Assembly (NCBI RefSeq): GCF_015714715.1 | Contig: NZ_WAHS01000001.1 | Coordinates: forward strand, 124,001 to 188,000 | Direction of reading: 5' to 3' | DNA: 64,000 bases | DNA from: Aestuariivirga litoralis | GTDB taxonomy: Bacteria; Pseudomonadota; Alphaproteobacteria; Rhizobiales; Aestuariivirgaceae | Part shown: positions 54,050-64,000 of the stretch, piece after piece | How positions within the stretch are numbered: the first letter of the stretch is position 1 | Layout of the letters: the number at the start of each line of letters is the position of its first letter | Program-made: the position numbers and the translations under genes | Notes under the pieces: generated by a model | Database searches by the model: none | Seen by the model: the letters and a program-made list of their open reading frames with translations, nothing else | What the model was told of the DNA's origin: nothing

Positions 54050-54124
54050 GCTCCCTTCGTCTATCGGTTAGGACGGCAGCCTCTCACGTTGCAAAGACGG
54101 GTTCGACTCCCGTAGGGAGCGCCA
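54050..54124 (+). tRNA. tRNA-Glu (anticodon CTC)
   Basis: Acceptor arms GCTCCCT / AGGGAGC pair perfectly; anticodon stem GCAGC / GTTGC encloses loop CTCTCAC, giving anticodon CTC; T arm ACGGGTTCGACTCCCGT; discriminator G and CCA are encoded (54121-54124). Layout matches bacterial tRNA-Glu. It is the boundary between core genome and the accessory stretch to its right, and tRNA 3' ends are common integration sites. Confidence 0.93.
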
Positions 54125-54251: not shown

Positions 54252-55139
54252 GTGACAAACATCGATAAGGGAAGTTCATACCGACCCACTTTTGCTCAGC
54301 GCGAAGGTATCGAAGAAATACCACCCGAGCTCGCGCCAAAATCAATCTCGATAGGTGCCGCAAATCTTCTTTGGCATGTGGTCAATCAGTCGATTGAAGC
54401 CAGCACAAAACGTGGAACGATGGATACGTACATAGCCGCGCCTTGGTGGACCATTCTTCGTGACTGGATGGTAAGGCAGGGCGGGCGGTCCGACAAAATA
54501 TCAATCAGCGGCGCTACGGTGAAAGCGCATGTCGCCCCACTTTTCATGGGGGGCGCAGCATATCATCACCCATTGGGCTTTATCGATTTCGTTCTACAGC
54601 ATGCGCTGTGTCCAGCCAACTTCGCTGCGCAAGTCCAGAGCGCACTTATCGAAGGACGAATGGGTTACCGTGTGGCGGCAGACAAACAGCTCTATCCGAT
54701 CTTCTCCGAAGCAGAAGCTGCCACTGTTACTCAAGCGTTGGATGATTTGGCCTCAACACCGTATGCAGGCGCAAACACACATCTCGTAAGTTCAGCCCAG
54801 AACCTGTTTGCCGGTGATTATGCGGGGAGCATACGTGAGAGTATCCACGCTATAGAGTCCGTTGCCAGCATTTTGGCGGGAAAATCTAAGAGTGGGCTCG
54901 GCGCGGCATTGAATATTTTGGAAGCCAAAGGCGTTATACATGGTGCGTTGAAGGAAGGGTTTAGGGCACTCTACTGGTGGACCAGTGACGAAAAGGGCGT
55001 TCGGCACTCGCTCTTGGAGGACGGTGATGCGAATGTTGACGTTACTGACGCAGCTTTCATGCTGGGCGCGAGTGCGGCCTTCGTCAGCTATTTAATCAAC
55101 AAAGGCAGGAATGCCGGACTGCTTCCAGCGACGTCATAG
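54252..55139 (+). CDS. AbiJ-NTD4/HEPN-like abortive-infection-type protein
   Basis: A 295-residue cytosolic protein. The N-terminal part (RPTFAQREGIEEIPPELAPK, then ISIGAANLLWHVV) has the pattern of the AbiJ-NTD4 domain. The middle GYRVAADKQLYPIFSEAEAA and the C-terminal run SIRESIHAIESVASILAGKS and AAFMLGASAAFVSYLINKG match the HEPN-like half of STM4504/CBY_0614-type proteins. Such proteins are found in defence islands. The only start is GTG 54252 directly after an in-frame TAA, with a poor ribosome site. First gene after the tRNA. Confidence 0.72.
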   Translation: MTNIDKGSSYRPTFAQREGIEEIPPELAPKSISIGAANLLWHVVNQSIEASTKRGTMDTYIAAPWWTILRDWMVRQGGRSDKISISGATVKAHVAPLFMGGAAYHHPLGFIDFVLQHALCPANFAAQVQSALIEGRMGYRVAADKQLYPIFSEAEAATVTQALDDLASTPYAGANTHLVSSAQNLFAGDYAGSIRESIHAIESVASILAGKSKSGLGAALNILEAKGVIHGALKEGFRALYWWTSDEKGVRHSLLEDGDANVDVTDAAFMLGASAAFVSYLINKGRNAGLLPATS

Positions 55140-55142
55140 CAA

Positions 55143-55610
55143 CTAGTTCGCATTCTGCTCTCTCATGCTTGCGCAACTAATAAGTAGGCCCTCACAGCGG
55201 TGAAGTGCCTCTTTCGCAGCCGCACTTATGGCCGGGCTCTCATCATAGGCCAAACTGTACATGCGCAAAGTATGGGCGCAGAGAAACAGGGCTTGCAGTG
55301 TGGTGTCACTCTTGCCCCGTGTCTTTTCTTGTATCGCAACGTAATGGGCAATTTCGACGCCAGCGTTCTCCAATGCCTTCTTCTTTGCCGCTCTGTTAGG
55401 CGCATTGAGAGCAGCATCCTTGTGTTGCTGCATCAGCTGCACGCCTTTTGTGATGAACCATTCGCCCACTTGGTTCGAATAGGCGGCATCGGCCATCACC
55501 ATTTCGCGGAATGCATTTGAGTAAGCCATAGCCTCGTCTATCTGCGAAATCTCAGATTTCGTTTTTGTGGAAACCGCATTGGAAACTGCCGTCAGAAGCT
55601 TTGAGAACAT
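55143..55610 (-). CDS. Orphan helical protein in the island
   Basis: A 155-residue predicted all-helical protein, with an amphipathic start (MFSKLLTAVSNAVSTKTKS) and a body such as QLMQQHKDAALNAPNRAAKK. Neither signal peptide nor membrane helix. Its stop is 3 bp from the stop of the AbiJ-like gene (convergent). AAGG before the start. No family recognised. Confidence 0.55.
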   Translation of the reverse strand: MFSKLLTAVSNAVSTKTKSEISQIDEAMAYSNAFREMVMADAAYSNQVGEWFITKGVQLMQQHKDAALNAPNRAAKKKALENAGVEIAHYVAIQEKTRGKSDTTLQALFLCAHTLRMYSLAYDESPAISAAAKEALHRCEGLLISCASMREQNAN

Positions 55611-55749
55611 TCGAGTACCTTAGATTGGTGTGTGAAAGCTGGCAATCGGTCAACGGTTGGAGTGTTCAGGGTGTGCAATGCACAGGCGTAGATCGCTTTC
55701 CTATGCAGATGCACACCCCGAGGTTTGCATACCTTGTTAGCCTTCTGGC

Positions 55750-56613
55750 TTAGAAGTCGGAGTTGACCTCCCGTTCAAACTCCTCTGCCATTCTGGAGTA
55801 AAGCCGGGTCGAGTAGTAGTGAATTGCCAAGAGAAACACATCTGGCATCTCAGCAGGCTTCTTCCCAAAGACCCGCCCGAGTTTCTTTCCCCATGCTTTG
55901 CCCTGCTTATCCCTCCAGTCATCACCCTTGGCAGGCATCACTTTGCCCTCCTTCACATCGCGCCATGTCAGGCTCTTGGGGTCGGTGTCGGGGTAATCGT
56001 TCCCGAACTCCTTCAGACGTTCTCTCATGTTTGCCACTGTCCGTTCGGATACCCCTGCCGCCGCCGCAATCTTAGCTTTCGATAGTGCGGCATCCTCCAG
56101 AGTCACCAGCTTCCAAGCCCTTTCAGTCTTGTCATCCTTCGACATCGCTAGCTTGTTGCGGCTGTTGAACGCGACTGCCGCTGCCATCGCCTCGGGGAGG
56201 GCTCCGACGAACACCTCGACCGCCGTTCCTTCGCGCAGAACTGTTGGCGGCTCAGAGGCTTTCAGCTTTCCCGCTTCAAAGTCCCTCGCCAAGTCTGCAA
56301 TCGCCATTGCCCGATGGTGGCCGTCAATGATGTAGAAGCGTTGACCGCTCCACCACAACACGAGCGGCGGGAACTTGTCGCCTCGCAACAGGGCCTCATA
56401 GAGTTCGTCGCGATGTTCGATGCTTTCATCCTCTGTCCCCTCAAACGTGCGGGGCTGAAAGACGGAAGTGGCGAAGTGGTACTCGCCTCGTTTCATCATC
56501 GTGGGTGCTTCGGGCTGTGGGCGACCCTCGTTACGCTCGGTTAGCAGGCGGGCATAACCTTGGGCAAACGTCGGGGTTTCAACTTGCGCTGAGGGCGCAG
56601 TGGTAGCTGTCAT
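55750..56613 (-). CDS. ParB/Srx-fold DGHHR protein with HTH
   Basis: A 287-residue protein. A ParB-N/sulfiredoxin-like domain is marked by LVLWWSGQRFYIIDGHHRAM (about 84-103), where the DGHHR replaces the GxRR nucleotide motif of plasmid ParB. A helix-turn-helix follows (ALSKAKIAAAAGVSERTVAN, about 172-191), then a basic C-terminal region. Stand-alone versions occur on phages and islands, where some are nucleases or CTP/ATP-binding DNA proteins. GGAGATG precedes the ATG. Next to the RNase H pair on the same strand. Confidence 0.75.
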   Translation of the reverse strand: MTATTAPSAQVETPTFAQGYARLLTERNEGRPQPEAPTMMKRGEYHFATSVFQPRTFEGTEDESIEHRDELYEALLRGDKFPPLVLWWSGQRFYIIDGHHRAMAIADLARDFEAGKLKASEPPTVLREGTAVEVFVGALPEAMAAAVAFNSRNKLAMSKDDKTERAWKLVTLEDAALSKAKIAAAAGVSERTVANMRERLKEFGNDYPDTDPKSLTWRDVKEGKVMPAKGDDWRDKQGKAWGKKLGRVFGKKPAEMPDVFLLAIHYYSTRLYSRMAEEFEREVNSDF

Positions 56614-56709
56614 GTAAACATCTCCGTGATGTGGTGGGGTTGATGGGAGGGCGAACGCACGGTGGGTGCCGTGCGCTGCATTGGTGTTAAATCTAGGTTG
56701 AGGGTGTGG

Positions 56710-57174
56710 TTAGGGGTGGGACGAAAGGCGGGCGCTCTGCCGCTCAGCCTCTTGACGAGCGAGGCGGTCCACCTCTTGATTGACCACGTCGTCGCCGTGG
56801 CCCTTGACCCATAACCACTGGACCACGCGGCCCTCGGTCAAAGCCAAGAGTTCCTGCCAGAGGGCCAGGTTCTTGACGGGCTTCTTATCGGCAGTCCGCC
56901 AGCCATTCTTGCGCCATCCGAAGACCCAACGCGTCATGCCGTCCACAACGTATTTGGCGTCCAGCACGAAGGTTATGGGTGCATCAGTTTTCATCGACTT
57001 CAGAGCAGCTATAGGTCCCGCAAGCTCCATCTGATTGTTGGTGGTGTGAGAAGCGCCACCGACGAGAACGCGCTCATCCGCGCCCCGCCGCATGATCACG
57101 GCATAGCCACCGGGGCCGGGATTATTGAGGCATGAGCCGTCTGCGTAGACGATGACGTGTTCAAGGGACGCCAT
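56710..57174 (-). CDS. rnhA: Ribonuclease HI, island copy
   Basis: A 154-residue RNase HI with the full catalytic set: Asp12 in VYADGSCLNNPGPGG, Glu50 in NNQMELAG, Asp72 in FVLDAKYVVDG, His126 and Asp136 (NQEVDRLARQ). It hydrolyses RNA in RNA-DNA hybrids. The ATG shares a base with the stop of the upstream RNase H-like gene (TAATG), showing coupling. A frame extension to 57375 is only overlap with that gene. Confidence 0.9.
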   Translation of the reverse strand: MASLEHVIVYADGSCLNNPGPGGYAVIMRRGADERVLVGGASHTTNNQMELAGPIAALKSMKTDAPITFVLDAKYVVDGMTRWVFGWRKNGWRTADKKPVKNLALWQELLALTEGRVVQWLWVKGHGDDVVNQEVDRLARQEAERQSARLSSHP

Positions 57175-57665
57175 TACACACCTCCCGCGATGAACATTGC
57201 CGCCCGCCGTTTCCTTGGGGACATCACCCGAGGTCTGGGGCCGTGTTTGAAAAGCTCCAGCCACGCCTTGCGGTAAGCGAGGTCGGCATAGCTTTCCTCG
57301 CCCCGTAGGTAGTTCGGTGTTCTGACTTCGGTAGTGGCGCTGCGCTTTGCGATGAGCCGCCGCACCAAGTACCAAACCGAGTCTTCAATCTCCGGCCTTT
57401 CGCCGCGCGACATGACCTGTTCCCAAGTCAGACCGGGCTTAGGCCCTTCGTTAAGAATGAAGGTAACAGGGACGTGAACGGGCAGGGTCAACAGCGTGTC
57501 GAGAACCCCGAAGGCCAGCATCTCAGCAGCAGTGCCCCTCCTGCGTCCACCGACTAGCTCACACCGAGTGTCGCCGTGCTTGAGGATCACAGCATAGCCG
57601 CACTGACCGTAGCTCGGGTTGTAATAGCAAGCGGACGCCGCATAGGCGATAACCGTGCCCTTCAT
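57174..57665 (-). CDS. Catalytically degenerate RNase H-like protein
   Basis: A 163-residue protein that aligns with the neighbouring RNase HI through YAASACYYNPSYGQCGYAVI, ELVGG and AAEMLAFGVLDTL. The first catalytic Asp is Ala10 and the third position is Asn72, while Glu48 is kept. It therefore should bind but not cut hybrids. The second half (VWYLVRRLIAKRSATTEV onwards) has no RNase H counterpart and ends basic (RKRRAAMF). Overlaps the zinc-ribbon gene by 4 bp upstream and rnhA by one base downstream. Confidence 0.7.
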   Translation of the reverse strand: MKGTVIAYAASACYYNPSYGQCGYAVILKHGDTRCELVGGRRRGTAAEMLAFGVLDTLLTLPVHVPVTFILNEGPKPGLTWEQVMSRGERPEIEDSVWYLVRRLIAKRSATTEVRTPNYLRGEESYADLAYRKAWLELFKHGPRPRVMSPRKRRAAMFIAGGV

Positions 57666-58327
57666 GCGCCTTCTCCGAACAACGCAGTAATCGCGGCCTG
57701 TTTGCGATCCGCCGCCCCTCGCAACCGCTCTTGCTCCTGCTGGCAGAGTCGCATTCCGAGCGGCCCGAAGGCAGTCATCAGCATCTGCCCGAGTTGGAAT
57801 GATGCTTCAGGCTTGAGGTCGCCCAGGACTTGACGCCGCTCCCCTTCGCTTTTGCTGTAGGTGTTGAACTGTGAAGACCCGAGGCTGCGGAAGCGCCGCG
57901 CGACAGAGATGAAATAGTTGCGGTCGTTGATGAAGCGGCGTGGGTTGTCCTCTCTCAGGTAGGCCACGGCGAGGAGAGAATAGATCACCTTATCCGCAGC
58001 GGCCTCTGACAGAACTTGGATTGCGGCCTTGGCGGCGAGGTGCTGGCTATACGGCGCACCGACGGGAGCTTCGGTCACCTTATCGCGTGCCTCTTGCCTT
58101 AGACCTGCTAGCAGTTGCCGGAGACTGGACATGGCGGCTTCGGGGTTCGGGTGCCGCGATAGCAGCCTCTCAACATGGCAGGCAGCGCGGGCTATTTCTC
58201 CTCTCGTAAGCGGCAACGCAGCTTCGTGGCCGTGACGGCGGAGTAGTTTCTGGTGTCTGGAGCAGAGTCGGGCGTAGCCCGCTGTGGTGTGTCTAGTGCA
58301 GCCGGGGGCGGCACATTGTTTGGGCAT
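57662..58327 (-). CDS. Zinc-ribbon-type island protein of unknown function
   Basis: A 221-residue protein. The N-terminus has a CxxxxC...CxxH metal site (CAAPGCTRHTTAGYARLCSR, residues 5-24), followed by HQKLLRRHGH, a pattern common in phage and island proteins. The rest is helical, with YFISVARRFRSLGSSQFNTY and a Gln-rich end. It is first in the coupled set with the degenerate RNase H-like gene (ATGA overlap) and rnhA. ATG 58327 chosen since the cysteine motif begins there. Confidence 0.6.
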   Translation of the reverse strand: MPKQCAAPGCTRHTTAGYARLCSRHQKLLRRHGHEAALPLTRGEIARAACHVERLLSRHPNPEAAMSSLRQLLAGLRQEARDKVTEAPVGAPYSQHLAAKAAIQVLSEAAADKVIYSLLAVAYLREDNPRRFINDRNYFISVARRFRSLGSSQFNTYSKSEGERRQVLGDLKPEASFQLGQMLMTAFGPLGMRLCQQEQERLRGAADRKQAAITALFGEGA

Positions 58328-58733: not shown

Positions 58734-58907
58734 CTAGGCCGGGACCGCCGCTAGCAGCCCGTGTAGAGCCTGCAGGTTGATCTTGGCCCAGTACCTCACG
58801 TCCGCACGGTCGCCTGCCGCAATCGCCACGGTGTTAACCGCCAGTGCTGCCACGGCGTCCGCCACCGCATCGCGCTCCCGCTTTGATAGTCTCGTCTGCT
58901 TCGTCAT
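58734..58907 (-). CDS. Small helical island protein
   Basis: A 57-residue protein starting MTKQTRLSKRERDAVADAV and ending LQALHGLLAAVPA. ATG 58907 has GGGAGACAGC upstream and a good sigma-70 promoter at 58942-58970. No family recognised; size and charge suit a small DNA-binding or accessory protein. Confidence 0.5.
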   Translation of the reverse strand: MTKQTRLSKRERDAVADAVAALAVNTVAIAAGDRADVRYWAKINLQALHGLLAAVPA

Positions 58908-58941
58908 TCGTGCTGTCTCCCTCTGGTTTGCACAGGCGCAG

Positions 58942-58996
58942 AGATAGGCTCTTGCTATCTTCCTAGTCAAGGACTATATTGCTACCAATGGGTAGC
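58942..58996 (-). promoter_or_regulatory. Promoter with adjacent inverted repeat for the 57-residue protein gene
   Basis: On the minus strand TTGACT (58970-58965), a 17-bp spacer and CTATCT (58947-58942). Just upstream, GCTACC-AATG-GGTAGC (58981-58996) is a perfect dyad that could be an operator. The rest of 58971-59224 holds no supported gene. Confidence 0.5.
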
Positions 58997-59224
58997 GAAC
59001 TTGGGCCACTGGCCGGGCACCGCGTCTCATTTCTCCGCCTGATCCTTTCGGCGCTGCGTTCACTGTTATTTCAGAACAGGAGCAACGGGACGCGATGAAG
59101 GGACTCAGCAGCCACCGCGCGGGGAAGACGAACAAACCACCGATAGCCACTGGTCAAGTTGGTGGCCGTACTTCGAACGGGAACCTACCTTCTCACTGTC
59201 GGAAGCAACAAGGATGTAAGACGA

Positions 59225-59696: not shown

Positions 59697-60392
59697 TTAG
59701 AGACCGCTCCACCAGCTAGTGAGCCCGCCTATCACTCCTGCCAAGACCATCCCGGTGACGGCGAGGCCGAGCATGAAAATGATTACGCCACCAAACACGG
59801 CCAAGAACATCTCAAGGCCCACTTGAAACACTCCTACTTGTTCTCCTGCCAGTCGTCTCTCCTTGATGCCCTGCATGCGGCCAATGGGTGCCCAAAAGGG
59901 CGCTGACAACAAGCTGCCCCACCACATAAACGCCTTGGGGATTGCTATCATCGCGGTGGGCAAAACACGCGGGCACCACTGCTTCCGAGTCTCGACGGCC
60001 ATGACAGCGAGGCCGCCTGCCATAAGGATCAACGGTATCGGCCATCCCGGAAGCGCAGTCATCGCGTCTTTCAGATTGCCGCCATAAGCCAGCCACATGA
60101 AAGCAGTGCCCGGTAGGATGTAGCAGACATAGCAGGGCACGACGAGGCCCAGGATTATCTGAGCGATCCAAGGCCCTCCTTCCGCTCTAGTCTTTCGATT
60201 GTCTTGCAGGAAGCCGCCCGCGATCCGCAAACCGGACCCAAGAAGCCAATATAGAACCGCAAGTACAATGCCGATGACAAGAACGACCGGGACGATGGTG
60301 AAGGCTTGCAACACAACAGACTTGCCGAAAAGTAAAACGGCCAGAATGAGACCCAAGAGGATGATAATAGCTGTGTTGCCTTGCCGATCCAC
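59697..60392 (-). CDS. Polytopic membrane protein of the island
   Basis: A 231-residue protein with about five transmembrane helices (IIILLGLILAVLLFG; FTIVPVVLVIGIVLAVLYWL; QIILGLVVPCYVCYILPG; and two at the C-terminal end). I place the start at GTG 60392 after GGAGTGGGGC because the protein becomes membrane-like there; a longer frame to 60458 is possible. No family recognised. It and the convergent two-helix protein may work together. Confidence 0.5.
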   Translation of the reverse strand: MDRQGNTAIIILLGLILAVLLFGKSVVLQAFTIVPVVLVIGIVLAVLYWLLGSGLRIAGGFLQDNRKTRAEGGPWIAQIILGLVVPCYVCYILPGTAFMWLAYGGNLKDAMTALPGWPIPLILMAGGLAVMAVETRKQWCPRVLPTAMIAIPKAFMWWGSLLSAPFWAPIGRMQGIKERRLAGEQVGVFQVGLEMFLAVFGGVIIFMLGLAVTGMVLAGVIGGLTSWWSGL

Positions 60393-60547
60393 GCCGCCCC
60401 ACTCCGCGATGCCCCGATGCGACCATAAGTGGAAACGCCTGCAAATGACAATCCCCACCGTTCGTGTGAGAAGGGCGAGTCAATCAAGAACGATATGCAA
60501 AAACACCAAGGCCCCTGATATTGTGATCAGGTAGACAAGCAGCGGGG

Positions 60548-61123
60548 TCATATCGCCGCCGCCTTAGCCAGTCTTGCTAGCTCTTTTTGTACCGTGGCTT
60601 TGCTAAACCCAACGTGAGCGGCGATCTTCCTCATGCTCAAACCTTCACCGTTCAACCTCGCTATCTCCGCCCGCGTCTCAGGCTTTACCATTGCGGGCCT
60701 TCCCCCGGTTCTGCCCTCCGCCTTCGCCTTAGCAATTCCCTCGAGTTGGCGTTCCTTCCTGAGAGCGGTTTCGAACTCTGCAATGCTGGCGAGAATACCA
60801 AATACGAGCTTGCCCGTACGAGTGGTCGTGTCCAGCGCGGCATCATCCAGAACCTTGAAGCCTACACCCTTGGCGGTAAGCTCCTCCACTATCTGATGGA
60901 GATGGGAAGCCGAACGGGCGAGACGGTCCAGCTTCGTCACTATCAGCATGTCGGCATCATCGCGGAGATACTGCAGGCACTCCGCCAGCACGGGACGCGA
61001 CTTGTCCAGCCCAGATTTCTTCTCCTCGAATATCTTGGTGGCCCCTGCCGCCTTTAATTTCTCAACTTGAGTAGCGTGGCCTTGCCCAGTGGAACTCACA
61101 CGCGCGTATCCTACGATTGCCAT
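60548..61123 (-). CDS. Serine recombinase of the resolvase/invertase family
   Basis: A 191-residue recombinase: catalytic Ser10 in IVGYARVSSTGQG, then LIVTKLDRLARSASHL (Arg pair), the E-helix AEFETALRKERQLEGIAKAKAEGRTGGRP, shown in part, and a C-terminal helix-turn-helix (GLSMRKIAAHVGFSKATVQK). Size is that of Tn3-type resolvases and Gin/Hin invertases. No transposase gene is visible in the window. A sigma-70-like promoter lies upstream. Confidence 0.92.
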   Translation of the reverse strand: MAIVGYARVSSTGQGHATQVEKLKAAGATKIFEEKKSGLDKSRPVLAECLQYLRDDADMLIVTKLDRLARSASHLHQIVEELTAKGVGFKVLDDAALDTTTRTGKLVFGILASIAEFETALRKERQLEGIAKAKAEGRTGGRPAMVKPETRAEIARLNGEGLSMRKIAAHVGFSKATVQKELARLAKAAAI

Positions 61124-61158
61124 CCTGTACCCTTTCATCTAAGACAATTGCTGACACT

Positions 61159-62025: not shown

Positions 62026-62919
62026 ATGAAACTGAAAGACCTTGTTTCCACGGTTGATCAACTGATGGGGGCGAAAGCCGTCTATGGTCCAAGCCTCGGT
62101 CCGGAAGCTGTGATGTGCTTCGGTGCTGTTGGGATAGACCCAAACAAGTCATCTTACTTTTCCCACGCTGAGACGGTTGCAAAGAAGGCGCTCGAAAGGC
62201 CGTACTTCGTGACAGTCGGTGGCGGCCACGACGTACAGGCGGGCTACAGAGGTCGCGCAATCGAAGTTGTCAAAGCGACGGGATGCTTCGGCAAGACTGA
62301 AGCCTTTGTGAAGACACCCGCTACCTACAGGCGCTTGATGCAGTGGCCAGCCGCAATCGTGCTTACCGAAGTTTATGAGATTGTTGGCATGCCTCGACTT
62401 GTCGATGACCTCGGTTTGGATGACATGAGGATATTGACCTTCGCGTTCGACGGCGTAGTTTTTCATGATGATCGAATGAAGGAGCTGTGGGACGCGTTGG
62501 ATCAGTGCGAACTGCGGCGGCGTTGGGACATGGCTCCGCCTGCGTTCTTTCGAGACCCGGGAAAGCTAGATCGCTCCTACACTCTTTACCCTCAGATTTC
62601 TGAGGAGGAGGGTAAGCGGAGAGCAAAAGAAACTACTGTGCTTGAAAGAAGTAGCAAAGCGGCTCTAGCGGCAAAAGCACGTAACCTCACTCAAAACGGG
62701 GGCAAGTACACTTGCGAGGCTTGTGCCTATGCCGACGAAGTGAGGGGAATGTTCGATGCACACCATCTGCAACCGCTCGCCACTGGTCCACGGATAAGCA
62801 CCATCGACAGCTACGCTATTCTGTGCCCACGATGTCATAGGATGGCACATCGAAAGGCTGAGAAACCGGAGGTTCCGTTGGCTATGGCGGAGCTCAAAAG
62901 ACTTCTCAATGCCCAATAG
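62026..62919 (+). CDS. HNH endonuclease with an unfamiliar N-terminal domain
   Basis: A 297-residue protein. The C-terminal HNH (McrA-type) domain shows the zinc/nuclease pattern C230-x2-C233, His246-His247 (FDAHHLQP), C267-x2-C270-His271 and His275. The first 200 residues (for example YGPSLGPEAVMCFGAVGIDP; TVGGGHDVQAGYRGRAIEVV) form a separate domain I do not recognise, possibly a modified-DNA or sensor module. ATG 62026. Such proteins often restrict foreign DNA. A terminator hairpin follows. Confidence 0.75.
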   Translation: MKLKDLVSTVDQLMGAKAVYGPSLGPEAVMCFGAVGIDPNKSSYFSHAETVAKKALERPYFVTVGGGHDVQAGYRGRAIEVVKATGCFGKTEAFVKTPATYRRLMQWPAAIVLTEVYEIVGMPRLVDDLGLDDMRILTFAFDGVVFHDDRMKELWDALDQCELRRRWDMAPPAFFRDPGKLDRSYTLYPQISEEEGKRRAKETTVLERSSKAALAAKARNLTQNGGKYTCEACAYADEVRGMFDAHHLQPLATGPRISTIDSYAILCPRCHRMAHRKAEKPEVPLAMAELKRLLNAQ

Positions 62920-62981
62920 CCCAAGCCTCAAAAGGCGGACAAACGGGGGGCGGGGCCATGGGGGGGTGAAGCGCCATGGGC

Positions 62982-63010
62982 AGCCTTTGATTGAGGCTTC
63001 ACATTTTTTT
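62982..63010 (+). terminator. Terminator after the HNH gene
   Basis: AGCCT-TTGATTG-AGGCT stem, extended by outer TGAAGC / GCTTCA arms, then seven T at 63004-63010. Confidence 0.6.
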
Positions 63011-63027
63011 GTGATTTTGGATGACGA

Positions 63028-64000
63028 ATGACCGCACCAGTAAACCTCTACGAGCTGCAGCTGAGAGCAAAGCTTCCGCAGTATCTACTGCAAAGTCTTG
63101 ATGAGTTCGAAGCGGCAACAGGAGAAGTACTTCGTCGGTTCTTAGCTGAGATCGAGGCTCGTCCACTGCCGCCGCTGCTCTATCACTACACAGGGGAGGG
63201 CGGACTTCGGGGCATACTTGGAAGTGGTACTCTCTTCTGTTCGGACGTCTTTCGCCAGAACGACAAAAAAGAAATAAGACATGGCATTAACGTAGCCTTT
63301 GACGAGTTGATCGAGCGCGGTCGCAAGGACCCGGATTTGTTCCGTGGTTACGCTGGCAATATCGCTAGGTTCCGGAGAACCCATCCGATGGAAAACGTGG
63401 GGAACTTTTACATCTGTAGCCTAACAGGCCAGGAGGAAAGTGAGAGGCAATGGCGACTGTATGGTGCCAGTTCTAGAGGCTTTGCGCTTGCGTTCGATGC
63501 TATGAGGTTAGAAGTGGCGTTCACGCAAGCAAACGGTGTGCCGATAGAGAATAACAATACGTTCCCTGTCACCTATGACCGCGCGATAGCCGCCAGACTG
63601 CAGGGCGAGATTTTGGACCTGATTGCCCCGCTGCTGGCACCTCTTCGAATGGGCGTATTGGCACAGCCGTCTCTAGATGCTTACTACAACGAACTGGCTG
63701 TGGTGCATCTGTTAGCTATTGTTCGCTTCGCGATGTTCTTCAAAGCAAGACAATGGAGCGCGGAAAGAGAATACAGGTTTCAGAACTTGTTCAGCATAGA
63801 TGCGAAACCAACTGACGTGAGGCTGCGTCCCGATCCAATGGGCGGTGCCGCTATCGAGTACAGAGCCTTTGACTGGCGTTCCGTTGATCCCGGTTGTCTG
63901 TCTCAAATCATCATAGGGCCAAAAGCAGATCAAGATGGCGGAGAGGCATTGGCACGAGAACTACTTCAACTGCACCATCCAAACCCCGAGACCGTCAAGG
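63028..64000 (+). CDS. DUF2971 family protein, cut by the right edge
   Basis: At least 324 residues are open from ATG 63028 to the end of the window without a stop. DUF2971 landmarks: PPLLYHYTGEGGLRGILGSG near residue 48, FRQNDKKEIRHG, then FYICSLTGQEESERQWRLYG and GFALAFD. DUF2971 proteins are widespread in genomic and defence islands with no settled activity; the C-terminal end is missing here. The ATG lies 17 bp after the HNH terminator. Confidence 0.8.
   Translation, partial: MTAPVNLYELQLRAKLPQYLLQSLDEFEAATGEVLRRFLAEIEARPLPPLLYHYTGEGGLRGILGSGTLFCSDVFRQNDKKEIRHGINVAFDELIERGRKDPDLFRGYAGNIARFRRTHPMENVGNFYICSLTGQEESERQWRLYGASSRGFALAFDAMRLEVAFTQANGVPIENNNTFPVTYDRAIAARLQGEILDLIAPLLAPLRMGVLAQPSLDAYYNELAVVHLLAIVRFAMFFKARQWSAEREYRFQNLFSIDAKPTDVRLRPDPMGGAAIEYRAFDWRSVDPGCLSQIIIGPKADQDGGEALARELLQLHHPNPETVK

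Follow-up and report, generated by a model that had tools for sequence, protein, structure and literature searches.

The five minus-strand genes considered here, which encode a zinc-ribbon protein (ZnR), a catalytically dead RNase H, an intact RNase HI, a ParB-like protein and an orphan, lie inside a 12.34-kb element integrated in a tRNA-Glu gene. We give about an even chance to the reading that they form part of the core operon in a small integrative element, probably its replication or maintenance module for the excised phase, because RepA-like, helicase, ParB-like and RNase HI genes keep company. The original prediction had taken the five genes for one system that could recognise R-loops or replication intermediates of phages or plasmids. 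This claim did not find support, as the full set co-occurs nowhere searched and the row sits in an integrated element. Since that element has its own integrase, resolvase and att sites, a core element function is likelier than defence against phages or plasmids. Within the window (the whole 64,000-nucleotide stretch of DNA that was analysed) and just past its end, the element and its attachment sites are laid out as follows:

54050-54124, tRNA-Glu(CTC) gene, the 3′ end of which is attL
54108..54124, no strand assigned, attL, a 17-bp direct repeat, TCCCGTAGGGAGCGCCA
54252..55139, plus strand, PDC-S32 protein of 295 aa, a PADLOC candidate defence family (E=7e-54), cargo beside the attachment site
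55143..55610, minus strand, ORF5, an orphan of 155 aa with no family, absent from every other locus and probably cargo
55750..56613, minus strand, ORF4, a ParB-like DGHHR protein with an HTH, 287 aa (phrog_1033, E=1e-10)
56710..57174, minus strand, ORF3, intact RNase HI, 154 aa (Pfam PF00075, E=1e-38)
57174..57665, minus strand, ORF2, catalytically dead protein with a predicted RNase H fold, 163 aa, carrying A10, L50, N72 and N118; paralogue at L021:10250-10744
57662..58327, minus strand, ORF1, ZnR, 221 aa, the hallmark gene of the element family
58734..58998, minus strand, 265-bp leader with an ORF of 57 to 78 aa and a DNA match to a second element
59697..60458, minus strand, predicted membrane protein of 253 aa, hydrophobic by inspection, no family
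60548..61138, minus strand, serine resolvase, 196 aa, with a homologue near ZnR in all loci examined
62026..62919, plus strand, HNH protein, weakly similar to type IV restriction enzymes, cargo
63028..64000 and on to 64038 past the window, plus strand, DUF2971 / PDC-S31-like protein, cargo
Past the window end, between the DUF2971 gene and attR, AbiJ-like protein
Past the window end, adjoining attR, tyrosine integrase, 457 aa
Window coordinate 66451 (L003:14451-14467), beyond the window, attR, the second 17-bp copy, 12,343 bp downstream

As is characteristic of an integrative element, an integrase is present and the tRNA end is duplicated at the far end; from the att ends, the integrase and the genes between them, the five genes are therefore part of the integrated element. 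In a sister genome of the same genus (G023), this tRNA gene has matching surroundings but no element; because the gene downstream differs (it is not urtE), an exact empty site was not seen there. The HNH/type IV-like, DUF2971/PDC-S31-like and AbiJ-like genes stand in a row beside the integrase (window 62026-64000 and L003:12035-12946) and are likely defence cargo. The element's likely defence genes, which would ride as cargo at its edges, are different from the five-gene row. The 295-aa PDC-S32 protein has no Pfam family above the cut-off and no PHROG. No capsid, terminase, packaging or capsid-remodelling genes were recognised in the window element.

All five ORFs are present where the original prediction placed them, and the first three are coupled as it described, the ORF1/ORF2 junction reading ...GGCGCATGAAGGG (ATGA) and the ORF2/ORF3 junction ...GTGTGTAATGGCG (TAATG). 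An alternative start is possible for ORF1, 12 bases upstream (58339). ORF4 and ORF5 are not coupled to this trio, with gaps of 96 and 139 bp. ORF3 is an intact RNase HI, as had been claimed, with an RNase_H domain and a complete D-E-D-D active site and catalytic His in the alignment (D12, E50, D72, H126, D136); the host's own RNase HI, encoded elsewhere in the genome, is 47% identical to it. The substitutions to Ala10 and Asn72 reported for ORF2 are likewise correct, and the pairing of an active with an inactive RNase H, read from the catalytic residues in the alignment, is real. Of the five active-site positions, ORF2 has lost four, with Asp10 replaced by Ala10, Glu48 by Leu50, Asp70 by Asn72 and His124 by Asn118; the equivalent of Asp134 is still an Asp (Asp128). 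With its D-E-D-D active site incomplete, ORF2 does not class as an RNase HI enzyme.

The fold of this degenerate protein was approached from several sides. ORF2 alone has no match in Pfam. Over residues 5-72, in its first half, it shares 38% identity with ORF3 (E=3e-12 for a single comparison). When ORF2 and its paralogue are combined in a two-sequence profile, a search of the PDB retrieves E. coli RNase HI with E=1.3e-3. An AlphaFold model of ORF2, made from an alignment without any RNase HI, has RNase H topology with a b1-b2-b3-aA-b4-aD-b5-aE core, and the matches listed by Foldseek against the PDB are nearly all RNase HI (E=2e-6, TM about 0.56). The RNase H fold is thus predicted to be retained, at moderate confidence because the mean pLDDT of the model is only 68. 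The model lacks the helix on which the basic hybrid-binding handle is built, and because of this loss, binding of RNA-DNA hybrids by the dead protein is doubtful. Two copies of the dead RNase H are known, both in this genome, and they share a conserved new C-terminal motif, AWxELFKxGPRPR. The protein was not found in phages or plasmids, nor in viral contigs or 85,000 genome contigs, the contig scans using short peptide patterns that reach close relatives alone. In 398 genomes from the order and 376 from the class, matches to ORF2 were weak, with scores far below those of the two copies in this genome; the three highest-scoring ones from the order, when read, proved to be canonical chromosomal RNase HI. 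Among phages, none has two RNase HI-like places, against 1,487 records with one, and plasmids hold 822 such places in 812 records.

The second copy, 39% identical to ORF2, was found by searching the genome with ORF2 and lies at a tRNA-Leu gene, in a 9.5-kb element with an 18-bp att repeat (locus L021). Here, a ZnR that is 39% identical to ORF1 is again ATGA-coupled to the dead RNase H, which is followed by a RepA-like AAA_25 ATPase, and the element has neither an RNase HI nor a ParB-like gene. This dead RNase H retains Asp70, has Glu in place of Asp10 and, like ORF2, has Leu in place of Glu48. The two dead RNase H genes are 48, 62 and 36% identical at codon positions 1, 2 and 3, and the two ZnR genes 54, 60 and 33%. 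Because silent sites are near saturation and the first and second positions are better conserved, both genes have, on this codon-level comparison, been maintained by selection on the protein in two diverged elements. These values also bear on whether the dead RNase H is simply a functionless, decaying duplicate of the element's RNase HI, which we consider very improbable. The neighbouring RNase HI is its best relative besides the paralogue, and the catalytic residues are unlike between the two dead copies, as decay would have it; yet the protein is conserved despite the near-saturated silent sites, its ORF and coupling are intact in two elements, and it has a new conserved motif at the C-terminus.

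Upstream of ZnR, the leader shares 90.6% DNA identity with the corresponding stretch ahead of ZnR in the second element (L021:8742-9006). DNA identity between the two elements is thus 91% in the leader, and it is 82% in the resolvase gene, compared with 39% for the ZnR and dead RNase H proteins; the high similarity of leader and resolvase suggests recent exchange or strong constraint. The leader is possibly a promoter/operator region. No iteron array or recognisable origin was found upstream of ZnR, and promoter and terminator scans stayed at or below chance. ZnR itself is built from an N-terminal CX4CX11CX2H zinc ribbon, an all-helical body and a 45-residue C-terminal helix, with the zinc ligands C5, C10, C22 and H25 invariant across nine aligned members. 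ZnR makes up a new family. Its fold is well predicted (mean pLDDT 88), but a fold search with the model gave no match. For this reason, DNA binding by ZnR is read from the zinc ribbon alone, and its role from genomic context.

That context comes from searches of genome samples, with ORFs called mechanically in the other genomes. Of 398 genomes in the order, 12 carry ZnR, as do 2 of 385 sampled across the class (its own genome included in both counts). Among plasmids there is one full-length match, on a Microvirga plasmid, while phage records and viral contigs contain no ZnR, and a scan of genome contigs with ORF1 peptide patterns, which reach close relatives alone, gave no match. A serine resolvase lies near ZnR at all 15 loci (14/14 genomic loci and the Microvirga plasmid). 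The ZnR stop usually overlaps or almost touches the following start, which couples the two genes in translation, and the gene that follows varies (ParB-like, RepA-like, phrog_4756 or other), so that the check for co-occurrence in other genomes recovered changing ZnR partners and not the five-gene set. The ParB-like and RepA-like partners point to DNA binding or replication, whereas phrog_4756 is of unknown function. The partners are:

L035, L039 and L063, ZnR then a ParB-like gene, adjacent
L040, ZnR then a RepA-like gene, with RNase HI in the element
L021, a RepA-like gene after the dead RNase H, without RNase HI
L036, L041, L044 and L045, ZnR then the phrog_4756 family, function unknown
L042, a helicase downstream of ZnR after a gap, in an element that also has RNase HI
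L038, a protein related to the L042 helicase, further downstream of ZnR

RNase HI occurs in three ZnR elements (those of the window, L040 and L042); because most ZnR elements are without it, RNase HI is optional. ORF4 belongs with the recurrent partners, its relatives directly following ZnR in the three elements listed, and the DGHHR motif is invariant in 4/4 of these ParB-like proteins. It resembles phage ParB-like partition proteins (phrog_1033) in having a ParB N-domain-like region and an HTH, and differs from them in its DGHHR motif, in a score below Pfam ParB cut-offs (ParBc_2, E=0.056) and in that no ParA partner was seen alongside it in the element. With no Pfam domain over the cut-off and no ParA, ORF4 does not class as a ParB partition protein.

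Several ZnR loci have features of their own. The phrog_4756 family regularly follows ZnR (L036:8705-10108, L044:9552-10916, L045:9784-11148). In elements with integrase and resolvase, a large protein is encoded at L043:6735-9071 and L041:5291-8128, and that of L043 is a homologue (E=2e-21) of an internal-virion-region protein from Rhizobium T7-like phages; no other virion genes were recognised nearby, and a satellite feature is possible. The ZnR-ParB element of L063 (6801-7577, 15802-16689) carries an AbiJ-like gene and a large serine recombinase, and appears to split a comM/yifB-like gene, the two halves of which were matched by eye.

If the replication and maintenance reading holds, the zinc ribbon would attach ZnR to a site on the element, and the long helix would serve for its dimerisation. 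Produced in step with ZnR, the dead RNase H would act as its non-catalytic partner, an adaptor or regulator, and is assigned to ZnR because the two stay together in the element that has no RNase HI. RNase HI would clear primers or R-loops during replication of the element, and the ParB-like protein, RepA or helicase would provide a DNA-tracking or unwinding activity; the RepA-like protein resembles phage primase-helicases. A further reading, to which we attach a low probability, is that the dead RNase H is a dedicated subunit that, together with ZnR, recognises an RNA-DNA hybrid or a fixed origin on this new family of mobile elements and switches replication on or off, with active RNase HI clearing in some members. 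A special case of the replication reading, likewise unlikely, treats ZnR elements as phage-mobilised satellites whose operon would serve helper-dependent replication. Their compact size, the layout of integrase with RepA or helicase and the T7-like homologue beside ZnR in L043 agree with this, although the window element has no recognised capsid, terminase or packaging gene, and ZnR itself occurs in no phage record or viral contig.

Several observations weigh against a role in replication. The ParB-like and ZnR proteins could equally well be transcription regulators, the region upstream of ZnR has no iterons or origin, most ZnR elements are missing RNase HI, and the dead RNase H is known from one genome. 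The main alternative is a regulatory operon, in which ZnR, together with the dead RNase H and the ParB-like protein, would govern the element's transcription, its excision or the expression of its integrase, and RNase HI would be a phage-derived accessory. This is a possibility of some weight, though a minority one: zinc-ribbon and HTH/ParB-like domains are present, the leader is conserved and RNase HI is optional, but in other elements the gene linked to ZnR encodes a RepA-like ATPase, or a helicase that follows after a gap. Because these are the genes linked to ZnR elsewhere, replication fits better than regulation. A defence system sensing R-loops or hybrids of phages or plasmids, with the dead RNase H as sensor, the active one as cutter and the ParB-like and zinc-ribbon proteins alongside, is distinctly improbable. 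The element does carry likely defence cargo, and the active/dead pairing exists; however, the second element has a dead RNase H without RNase HI, the basic handle is lost from the dead protein, and the core is common to elements of other content. PADLOC models gave no match to ORF1, ORF2 or ORF5 and a marginal mad1 HTH match alone to ORF4. The five genes were not together elsewhere among the genomes searched, and for this lack of co-occurrence the five-gene defence system was rejected. Literature searches gave no description of such an RNase H pair or module.

ZnR serves as a marker gene by which a family of small integrative elements can be recognised; several of these have defence cargo, and they were found mostly within one alphaproteobacterial order. 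Like tRNA-integrated elements and phage satellites with an integrase and RepA or primase, the window element combines a tyrosine integrase, a tRNA att site, a compact core and defence cargo; unlike them, it has the ZnR hallmark, a serine resolvase, a variable ZnR-coupled partner and no recognised packaging genes. The dead copy is a rare example among bacterial RNase HI homologues, in that its catalytic residues are lost and yet selection keeps it in an operon. Set beside the bacterial RNase HI family (E. coli RnhA, PF00075), ORF3 is a full member, and ORF2 has the same predicted fold without the equivalents of D10, E48, D70 and H124 or the basic handle, and with a new C-terminal motif. In retroviral and retrotransposon reverse transcriptases, the connection domain is a degenerate RNase H beside an active one. 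The two systems share the pairing of a non-catalytic RNase H fold with a catalytic one, but here there is no reverse transcriptase, the proteins are separate, and the dead copy also occurs without an active one. Should the dead copy prove to regulate hybrid-dependent replication, bacteria would have a parallel to these degenerate domains. An inactive RNase HI has precedent in bacteria, since Bacillus subtilis has an inactive Group A RNase HI without the basic protrusion, in a genome with other RNases H (PMC1950709). The dead copy is likewise an RNase HI homologue without the basic handle, but differs in that its catalytic residues are lost, it is coupled to a zinc-ribbon gene within a mobile element and, in one element, it is also coupled to an active RNase HI.
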